This document shows, piece after piece, positions 24,328-34,939 of a stretch of DNA of 34,939 nt; position 1 is the first letter of the stretch, and each line of letters opens with the position of its first letter. The translations under genes and the position numbers were made by a program. The notes beneath the pieces are model-generated. The model was not told the origin of the DNA. It ran no database searches and was given only the letters and a program-made list of their open reading frames with translations. Source of the stretch: Alphaproteobacteria bacterium (lineage in GTDB: Bacteria > Pseudomonadota > Alphaproteobacteria > Rhodobacterales > Rhodobacteraceae); the NCBI GenBank assembly GCA_030431935.1, contig JAUIIC010000012.1, forward strand, positions 1-34,939. The letters run 5' to 3'.

Positions 24328-25521
24328 ATGAAAAAACTTCTGCTTGCCAGCGCGGCGACCGCCGCGATGACCGCCTCTGCGTTTGCCGGCAGCCATTCCG
24401 AGGAAGTCAAGATCGGCATCATCCTTGGCTTCACGGGGCCCATCGAATCGCTGACGCCGTCGATGGCCGATGGCGCCGAGCTCGCCATCAAGGAGGTCTC
24501 GGACTCGGGCCTTCTTCTGGGCGGCCGGACCGTGACGTCGGTGCGCGCTGACTCCACCTGCATCGACGCCGGCGCCGCGACCGCCGCCGCAGAGCGTCTG
24601 ATTACCTCGGACGGTGTCAAGGGCATCATGGGGGCCGACTGCTCCGGCGTGACCGGCGCGATCCTGGCCAACGTGGCGGTGCCGAACGGCGTTGTGATGA
24701 TCTCGCCCTCGGCGACCTCGCCCGCGCTCTCGACCGCCGAGGACAACGGCCTGTTCTTCCGCACCGCGCCGTCTGATGCCCGCCAGGGCGTCGTGATGGC
24801 CGAGATCCTGCTGGAAGCCGGCATCCAGGAAGTCGCGGTCACCTACACGAACAACGACTACGGCAAGGGCCTCGCCGACAGCTTCGAGGCCGCCTATGTC
24901 GAGCGCGGCGGCACCGTGACGCTGAACGCGGCGCACGAGGACGGCAAGGCCGACTATTCGGCCGAAGTGGGGGCTCTGGCTTCGGCCGGCGGTGACCGTC
25001 TGGTCGTCGCGGGCTACGTCGACCAGGGCGGCTCTGGCGTGGTGCGTGCCGCGCTCGATTCGGGCGCCTTCGACACCTTCCACTTCCCCGACGGCATGAT
25101 CTCGGCCGCTCTCGAAGCGAACTTCGGTTCGGAGATCGACGGCTCGACCGGCCAGCACCCGGGCACCGACAGCGAGGGCGCCTCGGTCTTCGTCGACCTC
25201 GTCGCCGGCGCGTTCGACGCCACCTCGCCCTTCACGCCGGAATCCTATGACGCGGCGGCGCTGATCCTTCTGGCCATGCAGGCCGCTGGCAGCGACGATC
25301 CGGCGGTCTACAAGGATCACGTGTTCCACGTGGCCAACGCTCCGGGCGAGCCGATCCTGCCGGGCGAACTGGCGAAGGCGCTTCAGATCATCGCCGATGG
25401 CGGGGACATCGACTATGTCGGCGCCACCGCGGTCGAGCTGATCGGGCCCGGCGAATCCGCCGGCAACTATCGTCAGATCGAAGTGAAGGACGGCGTGATC
25501 TCGACCGTTCAGTTCCGCTGA
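24328..25521 (+). CDS. Branched-chain amino acid-type ABC transporter substrate-binding protein
   Basis: A 397-residue periplasmic binding protein (Peripla_BP_6, LivJ-like). It has a clear signal peptide, MKKLLLASAATAAMTASAFA before GSHSEE. Family features: IGIILGFTGPIESL near the mature N-terminus, GADCSGVTGAILANVAVPNGVVMISPSATSP (about 110-140, in pieces) and FYFRTAPSDARQG-like FFRTAPSD. The ligand may be a branched-chain amino acid, another amino acid, an amide or urea; it cannot be fixed from sequence. It is the first gene of a complete importer operon and is followed by a strong hairpin that should give it more mRNA than the membrane components. Confidence 0.94.
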   Translation: MKKLLLASAATAAMTASAFAGSHSEEVKIGIILGFTGPIESLTPSMADGAELAIKEVSDSGLLLGGRTVTSVRADSTCIDAGAATAAAERLITSDGVKGIMGADCSGVTGAILANVAVPNGVVMISPSATSPALSTAEDNGLFFRTAPSDARQGVVMAEILLEAGIQEVAVTYTNNDYGKGLADSFEAAYVERGGTVTLNAAHEDGKADYSAEVGALASAGGDRLVVAGYVDQGGSGVVRAALDSGAFDTFHFPDGMISAALEANFGSEIDGSTGQHPGTDSEGASVFVDLVAGAFDATSPFTPESYDAAALILLAMQAAGSDDPAVYKDHVFHVANAPGEPILPGELAKALQIIADGGDIDYVGATAVELIGPGESAGNYRQIEVKDGVISTVQFR

Positions 25522-25545
25522 TCCGTCGCGACATATGACAGGAAT

Positions 25546-25578
25546 GTGCCCGAAATCCCTGATTTCGGGCACGTTTTT
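25546..25578 (+). terminator. Intra-operon Rho-independent terminator after the binding-protein gene
   Basis: A perfect 12-bp stem, GTGCCCGAAATC with GATTTCGGGCAC, closes a 3-base loop and is followed by GTTTTT. It lies between the binding-protein and first ATPase genes. The second ATPase-gene ribosome site AGGAGG follows it. Partial readthrough is the usual way to keep binding protein in excess. Confidence 0.9.
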
Positions 25579-25596
25579 CATGACAGGAGGCAGCGC

Positions 25597-26385
25597 ATGA
25601 TCGTTGTCGAGAAGCTGCGCAAGCATTTCGGCGGCTTCCATGCCGTCGACGGCGCGACACTGTCCATCGCGCCGGGGTCGATCACCGGGCTGATCGGGCC
25701 GAACGGCGCCGGCAAGACGACGCTGTTCAACGTCATTGCCGGGGTGCTCAAGCCGACCTCGGGCAAGGTGACGATGGATGGCGAGGACATCACCGGCCTG
25801 CCGCCGCACGACCTGTTTCACAAGGGGCTTCTGCGCACCTTCCAGATCGCGCACGAGTTCTCGTCGATGACGGTGCGCGAGAACCTGATGATGGTGCCGG
25901 GCGGGCAATCGGGGGAAACGCTCTGGAACACCTGGTTCGGGCGCGGTCGCATCGCCGAGGAAGAGCGTGCCCTTTTGAAGAAAGCCGATGAAGTCCTTGA
26001 ATTTCTGACCATAGACCATCTCAAGGATGAAAAGGCGGGGAACCTGTCGGGGGGCCAGAAGAAGCTTCTGGAACTGGGCCGCACGATGATGGTGGACGCG
26101 CGCATCGTCTTTCTGGACGAGGTCGGCGCGGGCGTGAACCGCACGCTTCTGAACACCATCGCCGATGCCATCCTGCGCCTGAACAAGGAACGCGGCTATA
26201 CCTTCGTGGTGATCGAGCACGACATGGATTTCATCGGGCGCCTCTGCGACCCGGTCATCTGCATGGCCGAGGGCAAGGTGCTGGCCGAGGGCACGCTGGA
26301 CGAGATCAAGGCAAACGAGCAGGTGATCGAGGCCTATCTCGGCACCGGATTGAAGAACAAGGACATGATCGGAGCGGGCGCATGA
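25597..26385 (+). CDS. livG: ABC transporter ATP-binding protein, LivG type
   Basis: A 262-residue cytoplasmic ATPase of the branched-chain amino acid importer family. Seen: Walker A GPNGAGKTT (about 37-45), signature LSGGQKK (about 150), Walker B RIVFLDEVGAG (here Asp-Glu followed by VGAGV rather than the usual PxAGL), and the switch His in EHDMDF. The C-terminal extension typical of LivG (AEGTLDEIKANEQVIEAYLG) is present. The start at 25597 has AGGAGG as ribosome site; an in-frame start at 25546 would lie inside the terminator and is rejected. Its stop overlaps the next ATPase gene as ATGA. Confidence 0.93.
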   Translation: MIVVEKLRKHFGGFHAVDGATLSIAPGSITGLIGPNGAGKTTLFNVIAGVLKPTSGKVTMDGEDITGLPPHDLFHKGLLRTFQIAHEFSSMTVRENLMMVPGGQSGETLWNTWFGRGRIAEEERALLKKADEVLEFLTIDHLKDEKAGNLSGGQKKLLELGRTMMVDARIVFLDEVGAGVNRTLLNTIADAILRLNKERGYTFVVIEHDMDFIGRLCDPVICMAEGKVLAEGTLDEIKANEQVIEAYLGTGLKNKDMIGAGA

Positions 26386-27212
26386 GCGGGAACGCCTGGC
26401 AGGACGATCGCGGCAACAAGGACCGCTCGATCACGCGCACCGACGGCATGGGAACGTCCCAGCCGGTCAAGGGCACCGGGCCCGCCCGCAAGGTTGCGGG
26501 GGACAGCGCCTTCCTGATCGGTGAGGGCATGACCGGCGGTTACGGGCGGGGCGCCGACATCCTGCATGACTGCACCATCGCCGTCGATCCGGGCGAGATT
26601 GCCGTGATCGTGGGGCCGAACGGCGCGGGCAAGTCGACCGCGATGAAGGCGGTCTTCGGGATGCTGAACATCCACACCGGCAGTGTGCGCCTCGACGGAG
26701 AGGACATCACCGGCCTGTCGCCGCAGGACCGGGTGCGCAAGGGCATGGGCTTTGTCCCGCAGACCTCGAACATCTTCACCTCGATGACCGTCGAGGAGAA
26801 CCTGGAGATGGGCGCCTTCATCCGGCACGACGATTTCCGCGACACGATGGAGCAGGTCTACGACCTGTTCCCGATCCTGCGCGAGAAGCGCCGGCAATAC
26901 GCGGGCGAGCTGTCAGGCGGACAGCGCCAGCAGGTCGCGGTGGGCCGCGCGCTGATGACGAAGCCCAAGGTGCTGATGCTGGACGAGCCCACCGCGGGCG
27001 TCAGCCCCATCGTGATGGACGAGCTCTTCGACCGGATCATCGAGGTGGCGCGCACCGGCATCCCGATCCTGATGGTGGAACAGAACGCCCGGCAGGCGCT
27101 GGCCATCGCGGACAAGGGCTATGTGCTGGTGCAGGGGCGCAATGCTTATACCGGCACCGGCAAGGACCTTCTGGCCGATCCTGAGGTCCGCAAGAGCTTC
27201 CTGGGGGGATGA
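26382..27212 (+). CDS. livF: ABC transporter ATP-binding protein, LivF type, with long N-terminal extension
   Basis: A 276-residue ATPase, partner of LivG. Walker A GPNGAGKST (about 79-87), LSGGQRQQ, Walker B VLMLDEPTAGVSP and the switch His equivalent (VEQNARQAL, typical Gln/Asn in LivF) are present. About 40 residues of polar sequence (MSGNAWQDDRGNKDRS and on) precede the first strand; LivF proteins are usually ~235-240 residues, so this extension is unusual. An internal Met at residue 50 would give a more standard length, but the ATGA overlap with livG supports the long form. Its TGA is overlapped by the mini-ORF before livH. Confidence 0.9.
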   Translation: MSGNAWQDDRGNKDRSITRTDGMGTSQPVKGTGPARKVAGDSAFLIGEGMTGGYGRGADILHDCTIAVDPGEIAVIVGPNGAGKSTAMKAVFGMLNIHTGSVRLDGEDITGLSPQDRVRKGMGFVPQTSNIFTSMTVEENLEMGAFIRHDDFRDTMEQVYDLFPILREKRRQYAGELSGGQRQQVAVGRALMTKPKVLMLDEPTAGVSPIVMDELFDRIIEVARTGIPILMVEQNARQALAIADKGYVLVQGRNAYTGTGKDLLADPEVRKSFLGG

Positions 27213-27262
27213 TGATGAAACATGACACCCCGACCGCCCTGCCCCTGCATAGGATTCAGTGA
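27209..27262 (+). CDS. 17-codon mini-ORF bridging livF and livH
   Basis: Three consecutive ATG codons open a frame, ATGATGATGAAACATG and on, encoding MMMKHDTPTALPLHRIQ. Its first ATG overlaps the livF stop (ATGA), and its TGA overlaps the livH ATG (TGATG). CTGGGGGG in the livF tail provides a ribosome site. This arrangement would let ribosomes leaving livF pass directly to livH, whose own start has no obvious ribosome site (AGGATTCAGTG). The peptide itself need not have a function. It is too short for homology. Confidence 0.4.
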   Translation: MMMKHDTPTALPLHRIQ

Positions 27263-28272
27263 TGGATCTCCTTAACGCGCTGGTCGCGCTTGCCAATTTC
27301 GTCATGATCCCCGCCACCTCCTACGGCGCGCAACTGGCGCTGGGGGCGCTGGGGGTGACGCTGATCTACGGGATCCTGCGGTTCTCGAACTTCGCGCACG
27401 GCGACACCATGGCCTTCGGCGCCATGGTGACGATCCTTGTCACCTGGGCCCTGCAGGGCGCGGGCATCACTTTGGGTCCGCTGCCCACTGCGCTTCTGGC
27501 GCTGCCCGTGGGCATCGCGGGGACTGCGCTTCTGGTGCTGGGGACCGACCGTGTCGTCTATCGCTTCTATCGCGAGCAGCGGGCGAAACCCGTGGTTCTC
27601 GTGATCGTGTCGATGGGCGTTATGTTCATCATGAACGGGCTTGTGCGCTTCATCATCGGCCCCGACGACCAGCGGTTCGCCGATGGCGAGCGCTTCATCA
27701 TCAGCGCCCGCACTTTCCGCGAGATGACCGGGCTGGACGAGGGGCTGGCCTTCCGCACCAGCCAGGGGATCACGATCGTGACCGCCGTGATCGTCGTGGC
27801 CGCGCTTTTCTGGTTCCTCAACCGCACCCGCACCGGCAAGTCCATGCGCGCCTATTCCGACAACGAGGACCTGGCGCTTCTGTCGGGCATCAACCCCGAG
27901 CGCGTGGTCGCGATCACCTGGATCCTGGTGGCCGCGCTGGCGACGGTGGCGGGCGTGCTCTACGGGCTGGACAAGTCGTTCAAGCCCTTCACCTATTTCC
28001 AGCTGCTCCTGCCCGTCTTCGCCGCGGCCATCGTCGGCGGTCTGGGCAATCCGCTGGGCGCGATCCTGGGCGGCTTCGTCATCGCCTATTCCGAGGTGAC
28101 GGTGACCTATGCCTTCAAGAAGGTGCTGGGTTACCTGCTCCCGGAATCGCTGGAGCCTGACGGGCTCGTGCAGCTTCTGTCCACCGAGTACAAGTTCGCG
28201 GTTTCCTTCGCGATCCTCGTGGTCGTCCTTCTGTTCCGTCCCACCGGCCTGTTGAGGGGGAAAGCGGTATGA
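27262..28272 (+). CDS. livH: Branched-chain amino acid-type ABC permease, LivH type
   Basis: A 336-residue polytopic inner-membrane protein with about eight to nine hydrophobic helices. The LivH signature is seen in YGAQLALGALGVTLIYGILRFSNFAHGD (about 20-47, in pieces) and in the ATPase-contacting AYSDNEDLALLSGINPERV (about 195-213). It pairs with LivM to form the channel. ATG at 27262 was chosen; a GTG directly before it (27259) is also possible. The stop overlaps the next gene as ATGA. Confidence 0.93.
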   Translation: MDLLNALVALANFVMIPATSYGAQLALGALGVTLIYGILRFSNFAHGDTMAFGAMVTILVTWALQGAGITLGPLPTALLALPVGIAGTALLVLGTDRVVYRFYREQRAKPVVLVIVSMGVMFIMNGLVRFIIGPDDQRFADGERFIISARTFREMTGLDEGLAFRTSQGITIVTAVIVVAALFWFLNRTRTGKSMRAYSDNEDLALLSGINPERVVAITWILVAALATVAGVLYGLDKSFKPFTYFQLLLPVFAAAIVGGLGNPLGAILGGFVIAYSEVTVTYAFKKVLGYLLPESLEPDGLVQLLSTEYKFAVSFAILVVVLLFRPTGLLRGKAV

Positions 28273-29573
28273 GTCTGACATCACGCGATATCCTGCTCTT
28301 TGCCCTTGTCGGGGTGCTCATCATCGTCACCGGCATGGTCCAGAGCTGGAACGTGGCCCTTGGCGTCCTGAACATGGGGCTGATCTCGGCCATCATGGCG
28401 CTGGGTGTGAACATGCAATGGGGCTACGCGGGCCTCTTCAACGTCGGCATCATGGGCTTCGTGGCCCTTGGCGGGCTGGCGGCGGTGATCGTGTCGATGC
28501 CGCCCGTGAACGACGCCTGGGCGGCGGGCGGCGCACAGGTGCTCTTCGCGCTTCTGCTGGGGGCGGCGGCGATCTTCGGCGCCATCTTCGCCTGGGGCAG
28601 GATGCCGAAAGGCAGGACACGGGGGCTGACCGTGACCGCGATCCTCGTTGTGGGCTTTTTCGTCTTCCGCGCGGTGTTCGACCCTGCCGTGCAGGCGATC
28701 GAGGCGATCAATCCCGCCAGCACGGGCTACCTGGGGGGGCTGGGGCTTCCGGTGATCGTGGCCTGGCCGATCGGCGGCGCGCTGGCCGCCGGGGCCGCAT
28801 GGCTGATCGGCAAGACCGCGCTGGGGCTACGCTCTGACTACCTGGCGATCGCGACACTGGGGATCGCCGAGATTGTCATCGCCGTCCTGAAGAACGAGGA
28901 CTGGCTGTCGCGCGGCGTCAAGAACGTGATCGGCCTGCCGCGCCCCGTGCCCTACGAGATCGACCTGCAGAACGACCCCGGTTTCGTCGAGCGGGTGACG
29001 TCGTGGGGGGCCGATCCCGCGACCGCCTCGTCGATCACGGTCAAGCTGGCCTATGCCGGGCTGTTCCTCGTTGTGTTGCTGATCCTGCTCTGGATGGCGG
29101 AAAAGGCCCTGCGTTCGCCCTGGGGCCGCATGATGCGCGCCATTCGCGACAACGAGGTCGCCGCCGAAGCCATGGGCAAAGATGTCACGCGCCGCCACCT
29201 GCAGGTGTTCATCCTTGGCTCTGCCATTTGCGGACTGGCCGGCGCAATGATGACCACGCTGGATGGCCAGCTGACACCCGGCAGCTACCAGCCGCTGCGC
29301 TTTACCTTCCTTGTCTGGGTGATGGTGATTGTCGGCGGGTCGGGGAACAACTTCGGCGCCGTTCTCGGCGGGTTCCTGATCTGGTTCCTCTGGGTGCAGG
29401 TCGAGCCGCTGGGACGGCTTCTTATGGACCTCATCACCGCCGGGATGGACGAGGGCAGCGCCCTGCGGGAACACCTGCTGGCCAGCGCCGCGCACATGCG
29501 TCTGCTCACCATGGGCCTCTTGATGCTGCTGGTGCTGCGTTTCAGCCCCCGGGGGCTGATCCCGGAGCGCTAG
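28269..29573 (+). CDS. livM: Branched-chain amino acid-type ABC permease, LivM type
   Basis: A 434-residue permease, somewhat long for LivM. Hydrophobic helices begin at residue ~8 (ILLFALVGVLIIVTGMV). The family loop RAIRDNEVAAEAMGKDVTRRHLQVF (coupling helix, about 293-317, in pieces) and GGSGNNFGAVLGG near 355 are present. An inserted region with extra helices around 75-150 may account for the extra length. It begins by a 4-base overlap with livH and ends 4 bases before the GTG of the nucleotidyltransferase gene. Confidence 0.93.
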   Translation: MSLTSRDILLFALVGVLIIVTGMVQSWNVALGVLNMGLISAIMALGVNMQWGYAGLFNVGIMGFVALGGLAAVIVSMPPVNDAWAAGGAQVLFALLLGAAAIFGAIFAWGRMPKGRTRGLTVTAILVVGFFVFRAVFDPAVQAIEAINPASTGYLGGLGLPVIVAWPIGGALAAGAAWLIGKTALGLRSDYLAIATLGIAEIVIAVLKNEDWLSRGVKNVIGLPRPVPYEIDLQNDPGFVERVTSWGADPATASSITVKLAYAGLFLVVLLILLWMAEKALRSPWGRMMRAIRDNEVAAEAMGKDVTRRHLQVFILGSAICGLAGAMMTTLDGQLTPGSYQPLRFTFLVWVMVIVGGSGNNFGAVLGGFLIWFLWVQVEPLGRLLMDLITAGMDEGSALREHLLASAAHMRLLTMGLLMLLVLRFSPRGLIPER

Positions 29574-29577
29574 GCGG

Positions 29578-30171
29578 GTGCCCCCCGTCGCGGTCCTGCT
29601 TCTTGCCGCGGGGGGTTCGAGCCGCATGCGCGGGGCCGACAAGCTGCTGGAACCTGTCGGGGGGCAACCCCTGCTGGCACGGCTGGCGCAGGCCGCGCTG
29701 GCCTCGGGCGGTCCGGTCGTCGTCACCCTTCCCGCCGAGGCAGGCGCGCGCCGGGACGCGCTGGCGGGGCTCGGCGTGGCGCAAGTGCCCGTCCCCGACG
29801 CCTCTGAAGGCATGGCCGCTTCCATCCGGGCGGGTGTGGCGGCCCTGCCCCGCGGAACCCCGGCGGTGATGATCCTGCCCACCGACATGCCGGAGCTGAC
29901 GGCCGATGACCTGGCCACGGTCCTTGCCGCCTGGCACGCGGGGGACGGCGCGCGCCCCTTGCGCGCCAGCGCGGCGGATGGAACGCCCGGGCACCCTGTC
30001 GTCTTTCCGGCGGCGCTGTTCGACGCGTTGCGCGGCCTGTCGGGTGACGCCGGGGCCCGCGATCTCTTGCGCCGGACCGGCTGGGACGGCGTGCCGCTGC
30101 CAGCCCGGCACGCCGTGACCGACCTCGACACGCCAGAGGACTGGGAGGCCTGGCGCCGCGGCGGTGGCTAG
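29578..30171 (+). CDS. MobA-like nucleotidyltransferase (MocA/NTP_transf_3 type)
   Basis: A 197-residue protein with the N-terminal nucleotide-binding motif LLLAAGGSSRMRGADKLLEP and a metal-binding TDMPEL (about 101-106). Relatives include MocA (CTP:molybdopterin cytidylyltransferase) and other NTP transferases of the MobA fold. It has a GTG start 4 bases after livM and so is probably translated from the same transcript. A functional tie to the importer is not obvious; in other bacteria MocA accompanies molybdenum hydroxylases such as xanthine dehydrogenase. Its TAG overlaps the TAG of the convergent membrane-protein gene. Confidence 0.85.
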   Translation: MPPVAVLLLAAGGSSRMRGADKLLEPVGGQPLLARLAQAALASGGPVVVTLPAEAGARRDALAGLGVAQVPVPDASEGMAASIRAGVAALPRGTPAVMILPTDMPELTADDLATVLAAWHAGDGARPLRASAADGTPGHPVVFPAALFDALRGLSGDAGARDLLRRTGWDGVPLPARHAVTDLDTPEDWEAWRRGGG

Positions 30172-30667: not shown

Positions 30668-31330
30668 TCAGGCCGGACGACGGCTCAGGGGAAAGATCGA
30701 CAGGGCCTCGTCCCGGTCGATGACGCGACGCGCAGGGGCGAAGGCCTCGGCCCCCTCCTCCGTCACCAGCTCGGGGAAAAGCGCCAGGATCTCGGCGCGG
30801 CGCGCCGCGCCGATCCCGTCGAGCGACGGCTTGCTTGGCTCGAAGCTCTCTGTCCAGCTGCCGTCGGACAGGACGACCTCGTGGGCATCGAGCAGGAAGT
30901 GGACATAGGTGACCGTCTCGGCCCGCGACTGGCGAATGCCACGTCCGTCGACGAGGTGCCGGACCGACACGAGCGTTTCCGTCACGTCGTCGGAGTCCGG
31001 TGCGCCATCCTCGGCGATCAGGACCCGGTGATTGGGGCTGAGCGTCATGTCGCGGAACGGCAGTCCATGGCCGAGCGCGCCCGCCTTGATGGTGACGGGG
31101 CGAAGCTCTGGCGCCTCTTTCAAGTCGGCCACGGCGAGCGTCCGCTTGCCGATCCAGGCGATCCGCTGCGCGCCGTTGTCCCGGGTCAAGACCTTGTCGC
31201 CGACTGAAAGACGCTCGACCGGGCTTTGGCCGAAGGGCGTGGCGATCTGGGTTCCAGGGGTGAAACAGGGCGTGCAGATGCTGGCCGCATCCGGTGTCCC
31301 GGCAGGTCCCGTGGCAAAGCGTGGTGCCAT
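30668..31330 (-). CDS. Hint-domain protein (Hint_2 family)
   Basis: A 220-residue protein dominated by a Hedgehog/intein (Hint_2) domain. It opens with Cys22 in PCFTPGTQIATPFG, the position of the autocatalytic nucleophile. Then come VERLSVGDKVLTRDNGAQRIAWIG and the His101 block TLSPNHRVL, followed by the family tail HFLLDAHEVVLSDGSWTESFEP in pieces. Only 21 residues precede Cys22 and no C-terminal His-Asn splice junction is seen, so self-cleavage rather than splicing is expected. Such proteins are numerous in Rhodobacterales, often attached to secreted or RTX-like domains; here no such domain is present. The start at 31330 has GGGGAGA 7 bases upstream; upstream in-frame codons lack ribosome sites. 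Confidence 0.85.
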   Translation of the reverse strand: MAPRFATGPAGTPDAASICTPCFTPGTQIATPFGQSPVERLSVGDKVLTRDNGAQRIAWIGKRTLAVADLKEAPELRPVTIKAGALGHGLPFRDMTLSPNHRVLIAEDGAPDSDDVTETLVSVRHLVDGRGIRQSRAETVTYVHFLLDAHEVVLSDGSWTESFEPSKPSLDGIGAARRAEILALFPELVTEEGAEAFAPARRVIDRDEALSIFPLSRRPA

Positions 31331-31670
31331 CTGTACGTCTCCCCGCACTTTCTTTCCTGCGGCTGCCCCGTTTCCGCCAATCATGATGGTCCAAGATAAC
31401 CACCAGAACCTCTCGCGCATAGCCGATGGCCCGGGAGAGTGCGCCGCGAGCGTGGCTTGATCGCACTGTAATGGACTGTTTTGTTGCCGGTCCCGAAACA
31501 CGCGGCAAGGTTTCAGCCAAACGTCAGGCGTGACCGGCCCTATTGTTGAAGGGAGTGGAAACAGTGGGCCGCAGGACTGGAATTTGCCGTGGGACAAGGC
31601 GCGCTGTTTCCCAATGGCCGGAAAACCACCGGGATGGCGTCGATCGTCCGGGGGACGTGAACACCGGACC
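31331..31670. other. 340-base stretch without a recognised gene
   Basis: It separates the Hint-domain gene from the end of the P-type ATPase gene, both on the minus strand, and must hold the Hint gene's promoter. No hairpin with a T-run, no convincing promoter and no conserved small frame was found; overlapping short frames are unsupported by ribosome sites. Confidence 0.5.
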
Positions 31671-34289
31671 TTATCGGCCGACCCGCCGCAACACCAGCGC
31701 CGCCTGCCAGACGAGCGTCGGCAGCAGGCTGCCTCCCAGGGCCACAAACAGGGCCGGCAGGCCTGGATAGGGTAGCTGCAGCACATCGGCGAGTGGCGGC
31801 ACGAACAGGGCGGCCCCGATCAGCAGGATGCACAGGGCTACCGCCGCCCAGACCCACGGGTTCCCAGTCACGTCGTTGCGCAGCACCCCCGCCTCGGGGT
31901 CGCGCAGGTTCAGCACGTTCCAAAGCTGCGCCAGCGCCAGCGTCACGAAGGCCACCGTCACCGCCTGCCCCGGCGGCAGCCCCGCCAGAAGAAGCGACCA
32001 GAGAAACGTACCCAACGTCGCCAGCGTGATGAGCCCGCCCAGCCCCGCGATCATTGCCCAATGGGCCCGGGTAACGATCGGTTCCGCGGGATCGCGCGGG
32101 GGCCGCGCCATCACGTCCGGCCCACCCCGCCCGAACCCGAGCGCGAAGGCGGGAAAGACATCGGTGACGAGGTTCAGAAACAGGATCTGCAAGGGCAACA
32201 GAGGCGATGGCAGTCCAACGCCCACCGCGATCACCACGATCAGCACCTCGCTCAGGTTGCAGGACATCAGGTAGATGACGAACTTGCGCAGGTTGTCGAA
32301 GATCACCCGTCCCTCGCGCATCGCCGCGACGATGGTGGGAAAGGCATCGTCCCTCAGCACCATGACGGCGGCCTCGCGCGCGACATCGGTGCCCCTCGCG
32401 CCCATCGCGATGCCGATATCGGCCTGGCGCAGCGCCGGGGCGTCGTTGACGCCGTCGCCCGTCATCGCCACCACCTCGCCCGCGGCCTGGTAGGCGGTGA
32501 CAAGGCGCATCTTGGTTTCGGGAGAGACCCGCGCGAACACGTCGGTTTCAAGCAGGGCCGTGCCACCGTCGGTCGTGTCGTCCACGGAGATCGCGCCGCT
32601 TCTGACCCTGGGGGGGTCCTGCCCAAGGCCCGCTTGCGCCGCGATGGCGGTCGCCGTGGCCGCATGGTCGCCCGTCAGCATGACCACGCGCACTCCGGCG
32701 GCGCGGGCCGCGGCGATGGCGGGCGGGACATCGGCGCGCAGCGGATCGCGCAGGCAGGCCACCCCGTAAAGTGTCAGGTCGCGATAGGGGTCTTCGGGAT
32801 CGGGCGCGGTCTTGCCCGCCAGGGCGAGGACGCGGAACCCCTGCCCCGCCATCTCTGCCTCGCGCGCGGCCCAGGCCTTGCGGTCGTGCTCGGACAGGGG
32901 GCGGGGGCCGTCCGCGGTCATGACATGGGTGCAGGCTGCCATCACCTGGGCCGGGGCGCCCTTGACGGCAAAGCGCGCAGCCCCGGGCGCGCCATGCGCC
33001 GTGGCCATCATCAGCCGGTCGGGATCGAAGGCGTACTCCCGCCGCTCCGGGTGGACGCGAAGCAGTTCCGCACGGTCCATCCCGGCCCGGTCGGCGGCGG
33101 CAAGAAGCGCGACCTCCATCGGGTCGCCCACCCCCTCGGCCGTGTTCGTGGAAGCGTCGAGGCCCGCGTTGTTGCACAGGACGCCCGTCTCCAGGGCGCA
33201 GGTCATCGCGGGCGCCGGGTCTCCGGGTTCGGCGCGCCCCCCGTCCAGAAGCACGCAGGCCACGGCCATGCGGTTCTCTGTCAGGGTGCCCGTCTTGTCG
33301 GTCAGAACGACGGTCGTGGCGCCCAGCGTCTCGACTGCCGAAAGCTCTGACACCAGGGCGTTTCTTTCGGCCATGCGCCACATCCCGCGCGCCAGGCACA
33401 GGGTCGCGACCACCGGCAGACCTTCCGGCACCGCCGCCACGGCAAGCGCGATCCCGGTTTCGATCATCTCGGCCAGGTCGCGGCCCCGCAGCACCCCCGC
33501 GGCAATGGTCAGGGCCGCCAGGGCAACGGTCAACGCTACGAGCCTGTGACCCAGCCGCACCAGCCGCTGCTCTACCGGCGAGGCGGCGGGCGCGGCGGCC
33601 TCGACCAGAGCACTGATCCGGCCCAGCTGCGTGTCCATGCCGGTTCCGGTCACGACACCCAGCCCGGTGCCGCGGGTCACGGCGGTGCCGGTAAAGGCCA
33701 TGTTGCTGCGCTCGGGTAGCGTCGTATCCGGCGGAAGCGGGGCCGTCGTCTTCAGCACCGGGACCGATTCGCCGGTCAGGACCGATTCGTCGATTTCCAG
33801 CGCCGCGGCCTCGACCAGGCGGATATCGGCAGAGACCACGTCGCCGGCCTCCAGCAGCACGACGTCGCCGGGCACCAGAAGGCGGGCATCGATCGCGATC
33901 ATCTGCGCCCCGCGGCGGACACGGGTGCTGACGACCGTCAGCCGTTGCAGCGCCTCCATCGACCGCACCGCGCGCAATTCGGTCACAAAGCCGATGGTCC
34001 CGTTCAGGATCAGAACGACCAGGATCGCCAGCGCCTCGACATGATCGCCGACGAGCAAGGAAACCGCCATCGCCGCTGCCAGCAGCCAGACGATCACGCT
34101 TTTGAATTGGGTCAGAAGCAGGTCAAGCGCGCTTTTCGGCGGAGCCTGCCTCAACCGGTTCTCACCATGTCGGGCCAGGCGGCGGGCAGCTTCGGCTTCG
34201 GACAGGCCGTCTGCGACCGCCACGTCCAGATCGGCTGCGACCGCATCCACGCTACGGCTGAACGGATGGGATGCGGAGGTGTCTGTCAT
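31671..34289 (-). CDS. Cation-translocating P-type ATPase (P2, PMR1/PacL-like)
   Basis: An 872-residue cation pump. In order: cation ATPase N-terminal domain (about 10-75), actuator domain with LTGESV (171-176), helix-4 ion site PEGLP (289-293), phosphorylation site Asp331 in DKTGTLTEN, nucleotide domain with KGAP, hinge MLTGDH and MTGDGVNDAPAL, and about ten transmembrane helices. Helix 6 carries NLVTDVFPA, whose Asn and Asp contribute the single Ca2+ site in SPCA/PMR1-type pumps; Ca2+ or Mn2+ is the likely ion. Its ATG lies only 28 bases beyond the 3' end of a truncated tRNA-Leu, so its native upstream sequence has probably been replaced by an inserted element. Confidence 0.9.
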   Translation of the reverse strand: MTDTSASHPFSRSVDAVAADLDVAVADGLSEAEAARRLARHGENRLRQAPPKSALDLLLTQFKSVIVWLLAAAMAVSLLVGDHVEALAILVVLILNGTIGFVTELRAVRSMEALQRLTVVSTRVRRGAQMIAIDARLLVPGDVVLLEAGDVVSADIRLVEAAALEIDESVLTGESVPVLKTTAPLPPDTTLPERSNMAFTGTAVTRGTGLGVVTGTGMDTQLGRISALVEAAAPAASPVEQRLVRLGHRLVALTVALAALTIAAGVLRGRDLAEMIETGIALAVAAVPEGLPVVATLCLARGMWRMAERNALVSELSAVETLGATTVVLTDKTGTLTENRMAVACVLLDGGRAEPGDPAPAMTCALETGVLCNNAGLDASTNTAEGVGDPMEVALLAAADRAGMDRAELLRVHPERREYAFDPDRLMMATAHGAPGAARFAVKGAPAQVMAACTHVMTADGPRPLSEHDRKAWAAREAEMAGQGFRVLALAGKTAPDPEDPYRDLTLYGVACLRDPLRADVPPAIAAARAAGVRVVMLTGDHAATATAIAAQAGLGQDPPRVRSGAISVDDTTDGGTALLETDVFARVSPETKMRLVTAYQAAGEVVAMTGDGVNDAPALRQADIGIAMGARGTDVAREAAVMVLRDDAFPTIVAAMREGRVIFDNLRKFVIYLMSCNLSEVLIVVIAVGVGLPSPLLPLQILFLNLVTDVFPAFALGFGRGGPDVMARPPRDPAEPIVTRAHWAMIAGLGGLITLATLGTFLWSLLLAGLPPGQAVTVAFVTLALAQLWNVLNLRDPEAGVLRNDVTGNPWVWAAVALCILLIGAALFVPPLADVLQLPYPGLPALFVALGGSLLPTLVWQAALVLRRVGR

Positions 34290-34317
34290 GCGCGAGACGC
34301 CTTCCGAACAACTGCGC

Positions 34318-34374
34318 TGGTGCCCGAGGTCGGACTCGAACCGACACGCCTTGCGGCGGGGGATTTTGAATCCC
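34318..34374 (-). pseudogene. 3' fragment of tRNA-Leu(CAA); probable integration site (att)
   Basis: Read on the minus strand, the segment has the anticodon loop TTCAAAA (anticodon CAA), a long class II variable arm, the T-arm GGTTCGAGTCC, the acceptor strand CTCGGGC and an encoded ACCA end. The acceptor 5' strand, D-arm and most of the 5' anticodon stem are missing: beyond 34374 the sequence becomes unrelated AT-rich DNA. Truncation at the anticodon stem is what a tyrosine integrase leaves at the distal end of an element inserted into a tRNA gene, the intact copy being at the other end. The fragment itself cannot make a working tRNA. Confidence 0.85.
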
Positions 34375-34429
34375 AGCTCATGACTTATAAACCCTTGTTA
34401 GCAATATAAAAATATCTCTTTCATAAAAT

Positions 34430-34447
34430 CTGTAGCTTGACTGTAGC
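34430..34447. repeat. CTGTAGC direct repeats spaced 11 bp
   Basis: CTGTAGC occurs at 34430-34436 and again at 34441-34447, one helical turn apart, about 56 bases inside the tRNA fragment. The position and spacing suit arm-type sites bound by a tyrosine integrase. Confidence 0.5.
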
Positions 34448-34451
34448 ATAT

Positions 34452-34473
34452 TTTGTTGTATTTTTGCAACAAA
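34452..34473. repeat. TTTGTTG/CAACAAA inverted repeat
   Basis: A perfect 7-bp inverted repeat with an 8-base T-rich loop (TATTTTTG), close to the arm-type repeats. It could be a weak terminator or part of the attachment region. Confidence 0.4.
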
Positions 34474-34688
34474 CTGATTGGACTTCGTTGCGAAAATATA
34501 CCACCCACCACATCACGGACCAAGGCTCACGGCCGAGTGGGAAAGGATATATATTTTTCAGACGGTTAGGCCAAACCAACTTGCACTATCCGAAGGCTGA
34601 ACGGACAAACAGAGCAGCGCCACTTCAGGATAAATACCCATGAGGCCCACGCGCCCGTGTGGCGGTGGCAGATGATGGGGAGAACACG

Positions 34689-34874
34689 ATGATACACAAC
34701 CGGCCTAAACAGATCGGCGCTCTTGGGGAGAATCCGGGAGCGCACAGAGAGGAACACACCCGGCGTGTGGCCAGACGCAGCAACCAGAAGCCCAAGCCGA
34801 TATTGATGGTAATGACGGACTATGCCCCCACCGTGGGCTGCTGTGTGCTGATAATGGTGCTGCTGTTCCGCTGA
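34689..34874 (+). CDS. Small hypothetical protein of the integrated element
   Basis: A 61-residue frame starting MIHNRPKQIGALGENPG with an excellent ribosome site (GGGGAGA, 5 bases before the ATG). The first 37 residues are polar and basic (HREEHTRRVARRSNQKPK); the last ~20 are hydrophobic (YAPTVGCCVLIMVLLFR) and might anchor in a membrane. I recognise no family. A GTG-started longer form from 34659 is possible. Confidence 0.45.
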   Translation: MIHNRPKQIGALGENPGAHREEHTRRVARRSNQKPKPILMVMTDYAPTVGCCVLIMVLLFR

Positions 34875-34939
34875 ACGCCACCGTTTTGCGCGCCCGTTTT
34901 GCCTAAATATCTGGTGCAGCACACGGCCTGCCTGGCTAT

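Follow-up and report, generated by a model that had tools for sequence, protein, structure and literature searches.

The window, which is the whole stretch of DNA analyzed here, is an entire contig (G000:C267) of 34,939 bases, and its right edge is the contig end. Its left flank is ordinary chromosome with a G+C content of 62 to 72% per kilobase, and its genes include those for a TRCF-domain (Mfd-like) helicase, a class-II DAHP synthase, a transporter, a Hint-domain protein, and a P-type ATPase. The right-hand part of this flank comprises a branched-chain amino-acid type ABC transporter cluster (24328..29573, plus strand), a 196-aa ORF related to MobA-like NTP transferases (29578..30171, plus strand), a gene with a Hint_2 domain identified by Pfam (30668..31786, minus strand), and the gene for an 872-aa P-type cation-transporting ATPase, likewise identified by Pfam (31671..34289, minus strand). 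The MobA-like naming was taken from the Pfam assignment of the neighboring gene in another genome of the family, G143 (L098:14551-15126). The true start of the Hint_2 gene is probably internal, because the ORF overlaps the end of the ATPase gene.

A 57-nt 3' fragment of a tRNA-Leu(CAA) gene lies at 34318..34374 on the minus strand, and the ATPase gene starts 28 bases past its CCA in the same reading direction. Read from 34374 to 34318 (GGGATTCAAAATCCC...CACCA), the fragment contains most of the anticodon stem, the loop with CAA, the variable arm, the T arm, and CCA; the 3' part of the tRNA thereby begins at the anticodon stem/loop and continues uninterrupted to CCA, and the 5' half is missing. 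Comparison with the intact gene of locus L031 shows that base 34375, just before the fragment, no longer allows the anticodon stem to form its first pair. The 57-mer is identical at 57/57 positions to intact tRNA-Leu(CAA) genes in loci L031, L108, L110, and L111, and at 56/57 positions in L109 and L112; L031 and L111 (Roseitranquillus sediminis) are probably from the same genome. As the second-best place for the 57-mer within the window matches at only 30/57 positions, chance is excluded for the fragment, and its full identity to the intact tRNA-Leu(CAA) of other genera indicates that it has not decayed. Neither ARAGORN nor Rfam found a complete tRNA in the window. An earlier, sequence-only reading of this DNA had stated that only the 3' part of tRNA-Leu(CAA) is present, which both the identity to intact genes and the ARAGORN result confirm.

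Intact and broken copies of tRNA-Leu(CAA) in relatives

The ABC transporter genes, the 196-aa ORF, and the Hint-domain gene form a flank common to tRNA-Leu(CAA) loci of relatives, where they adjoin the intact tRNA gene on its 3' side. An exact 51-mer of the fragment was found in five named genomes, all five with an intact tRNA-Leu(CAA). In four of them (Rhodovulum marinum, Maritimibacter sp. 55A14, Roseitranquillus sediminis, and the MAG HKST-UBA101), genes of the window are located 3' of this tRNA, and no window genes were found beside the tRNA-Leu(CAA) of the fifth, Phycocomes zhengii. Short loci from the family contain an intact gene in 29 of 29 cases, with neighbors from the window within about 1.5 kb in five (L031, L039, L048, L052, and L053). 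Because its gene order matches that of relatives with the intact gene, the window site is the native tRNA-Leu(CAA) locus.

The ATPase gene was found in none of these tRNA-Leu(CAA) loci of relatives, and none of 29 ATPase loci of relatives contains a tRNA-Leu; the gene therefore probably arrived here within this lineage. That the ATPase gene was carried in by an older element in the same tRNA was rejected, as the window contains no second fragment. An insertion in the tRNA gene would have replaced whatever promoter preceded the tRNA, upstream of the ATPase gene. No sigma-70-like site was found on the minus strand of 34200-34939.

A strict tRNA pattern was matched in 31 of 295 genomes of the family, the window's own genome included, with two copies each in G143 and G149, and loci were retrieved for 30 of the 33 places. 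The tRNA-Leu(CAA) is complete in 28 of these, the exceptions being the window and one of the two G149 copies. In G149, 42 kb separate the two copies, which share one orientation, and the intact one is adjoined by an integrase gene. The G143 copies enclose a 10-kb stretch that contains integrase, primase-like, capsid, and prohead protease genes. The broken G143 copy is also called as a tRNA by ARAGORN; false calls of this kind are described in an excerpt of PMC9897764. In a third genome, G046, an intact and a broken copy are found on two separate contigs. Within each of the three pairs, the copies agree at every base from TTCAAAATCC in the anticodon loop through CCA, and they part at TTCAAAATCC or within a base or so ahead of it. 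The window fragment has the same form as the broken copies of these three genomes.

Two side observations concern these loci. The element in the tRNA-Leu(CAA) of G143 (L098, 4136-14303) is prophage-like and, at ~10 kb, short for a prophage. On the contig with the broken copy of G046 (L102, contig C22, 4277-4330), a P-type ATPase is encoded ~5 kb away, perhaps by chance.

The sequence-only reading had proposed a comparison with relatives that lack the insertion, and in these the left flank of the window does adjoin the 3' side of an intact tRNA-Leu(CAA). It had also named, as an observation that would speak against it, close relatives in which the fragment occurs without an insertion; this is countered by the 28 intact loci among the 30 and by the sole other broken one among them, that of G149, which is accompanied by its intact copy at 42 kb and by an integrase beside that copy.

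DNA right of the break and content of the bin

The G+C content drops at the break, from 0.61 to 0.70 (about 65%) to 0.29 directly right of 34374. It stays at 29 to 42% across about 125 bases (34375..34500), which, judged by composition, would be the AT-rich end of an element adjoining the core and possibly the region of an attP arm. From there to the contig end (34501..34939), at 52 to 61% G+C and without any known family, follows what is probably more DNA of the same unseen element. The earlier description of the fragment as joined to AT-rich DNA thus stands at the junction itself, with its G+C of 0.29, but only over the short stretch 34375-34500, beyond which values of 0.52 to 0.61 are reached. 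The direct repeats in helical phase described there did not hold up. The sole nontrivial case is CTGTAGC, which occurs at 34430 and again 11 bp further on, at 34441, and is at chance level: the count of repeated 7-mer pairs in 34375-34520 was equaled in 229 of 1,000 dinucleotide shuffles, and that of repeated 6-mers in 62 of 1,000. As neither count is significant against the shuffles, the repeat argument should be dropped. Elsewhere in the element end, at 34876-34901, two adjoining 13-base near-copies both end in CCGTTTTG.

The contig stops 565 bases past the break, and no integrase was found in these bases; three ORF queries had no match in PHROGs. A possible ORF of 61 aa (34689..34874, plus strand), which may not be a gene, had no match in Pfam, PHROGs, viral contigs, or plasmids; a phage match with an E value of 0.6 was dropped, and so was a match with an E value of 7e-5 that has three internal stops and occurs in 1 of 294 other genomes. 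Convincing relatives of the DNA right of the break were not found in 394 genomes of the family and 390 of the order (overlapping sets). Besides the window itself, only two short borderline matches came up (E values of 5e-4 and 9e-4); these are expected by chance given the number of genomes, and a comparison of the same two loci with the 61-aa ORF gave no relative there. Among the phage and plasmid matches listed, nothing extends past the tRNA part except for 17 extra bases in Aeromonas phage phiO18P beside the core. Exact patterns searched in viral contigs gave no matches for a 47-mer of the tRNA and none for a 22-mer of the junction; CTGTAGCTTGACTGTAGC gave two matches, neither of them near the tRNA fragment, which is about the chance level by a rough estimate.

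The assembly consists of 301 contigs with an estimated completeness of 84%. We found tRNA-Leu genes with the anticodons TAA, TAG, and GAG in the bin, and no intact tRNA-Leu(CAA) was found in this 84%-complete bin. Five hits to the integrase family PF00589 are unlinked to the site, and the loci around all five contain no tRNA. Neither a tRNA nor a copy of the fragment was found on the integrase contigs C26, C114, and C129, examined over their first 12,000 of 24,073, 14,000 of 14,182, and 10,000 of 12,225 bases, respectively. A 192-aa gene, which we take to be DedA-like, stands on the 5' side of tRNA-Leu(CAA) in five relatives and was not found in the bin. It is followed in L110 by a presumably HNH-type gene, a relative of which is present among other genes on contig C104; this contig was rejected as the other end of the site, as it has no tRNA. 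The absence of an intact tRNA, a linked integrase, and the 192-aa gene is expected because the bin is incomplete, and these absences do not decide the matter.

Probable integration at the anticodon loop and its alternatives

Taken together, the window site is very probably the attR-like distal end of a genomic island or prophage that was inserted in the native tRNA-Leu(CAA) by a tyrosine integrase. The crossover would have taken place in the anticodon loop, between the chromosomal gene and the attP of the element, which carries its own version of the tRNA 3' part. With this version, a functional tRNA would be rebuilt at the opposite end, outside the assembly, while the original 3' part would be left stranded at 34318-34374 beside the ATPase gene, presumably as a dead copy marking the distal attachment site. 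Since the fragment lacks its 5' half, we infer that the element has to continue rightward, with the rebuilt tRNA at its far end; an integrase should also belong to it. The sequence-only reading had likewise seen here the distal site of a tyrosine integrase, for which the native locus, the G+C step, the break at the anticodon, and the G149, G143, and G046 pairs now argue.

Known systems offer close parallels. According to an excerpt of PMC4383910 (Islander), attP carries a fragment of the tRNA gene, and recombination restores the gene at one end of the island, with the displaced fragment ending up at the opposite end; the excerpt gives 2,083 islands with an anticodon-centered site, under a length filter of 2 to 200 kb. 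As far as they are described in that excerpt, Islander class A islands resemble the window in their displaced tRNA 3' fragment and in the break at the anticodon stem/loop, whereas the window's assembly is without the element, the integrase, and the restored tRNA. A precedent from the roseobacter group is found in an excerpt of PMC7305329, in which prophages A and D of Sulfitobacter sit in tRNA-Leu, although with a core of 15 bp at the 3' end, compared with the anticodon-centered 57-bp core of the window.

Like the window, the G143 prophage and the G149 island break tRNA-Leu(CAA) at the anticodon loop, and in each case the intact copy has the broken one on its 3' side. Their ends showed no sequence similarity to the right side of the window in the searches made, and they differ in that the integrase adjoins the broken copy in G143 and the intact copy in G149. 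Segments of tRNA-Leu 3' sequence are also present in phiO18P and in Acidovorax phage AP1, identical to the window fragment at 50/56 and 52/57 positions, respectively (calculated from percentages). In both phages, the integrase gene is found on the anticodon side of the segment, no more than about 100 bases away, whereas no integrase is encoded in the 565 bases on that side in the window. Once integrated, an element with the phage layout would have its integrase next to the broken copy, which is the arrangement in G143. From the lack of an integrase in the 565 bases, it follows that the window's element is arranged as in G149, that its integrase lies further in, or that the gene was lost. The ends of the phage BLAST alignments were rejected as evidence for the crossover point, as they stop where the similarity to the window stops, even against complete phage tRNA genes.

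The site would look the same if the tRNA gene were really intact and the assembly had misjoined the chromosome, across the 57-nt core, to an unintegrated phage or plasmid whose attP contains that core. The core would then be an exact repeat of 57 bp, and the assembly is fragmented, with 301 contigs and 84% completeness; we nevertheless consider a misassembly unlikely, as the contig crosses the core and continues for 565 bases, and an element with such an attP would still be required, which leaves the biology nearly the same. It is quite unlikely that the fragment is the scar of an old, decayed element or of a deletion of the tRNA 5' half together with its neighbor. The bin would fit such a history, as neither an integrase linked to the site nor an intact tRNA-Leu(CAA) was found in it, and the tRNA-Leu(TAA) that it does contain might read TTG codons. 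However, the fragment is undecayed (57/57), it breaks off at the anticodon stem, the place at which integrases of this kind recombine, and DNA of a different composition lies beyond it.

We regard as very unlikely that the element represents an undescribed family without counterpart in the searched phage, plasmid, and Rhodobacteraceae genomes, and that its insertion exchanges the DNA preceding the ATPase gene, so that insertion and excision would place this gene alternately behind a promoter linked to the tRNA and behind the element's own end. If the tRNA gene were genuinely split, with the 5' half located at another place in the genome, a 3' half standing alone here would be explained, but the ordinary complete gene in 28 of the 30 family loci fetched makes this exceedingly improbable.

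The window site is an ordinary integration scar, a fresh case of a well-known kind, and general understanding is unchanged by it. It illustrates how, in fragmented assemblies, an island may be represented by only one of its ends. The scar flags one unseen mobile element and identifies tRNA-Leu(CAA) as a site that is used for integration in Rhodobacteraceae.
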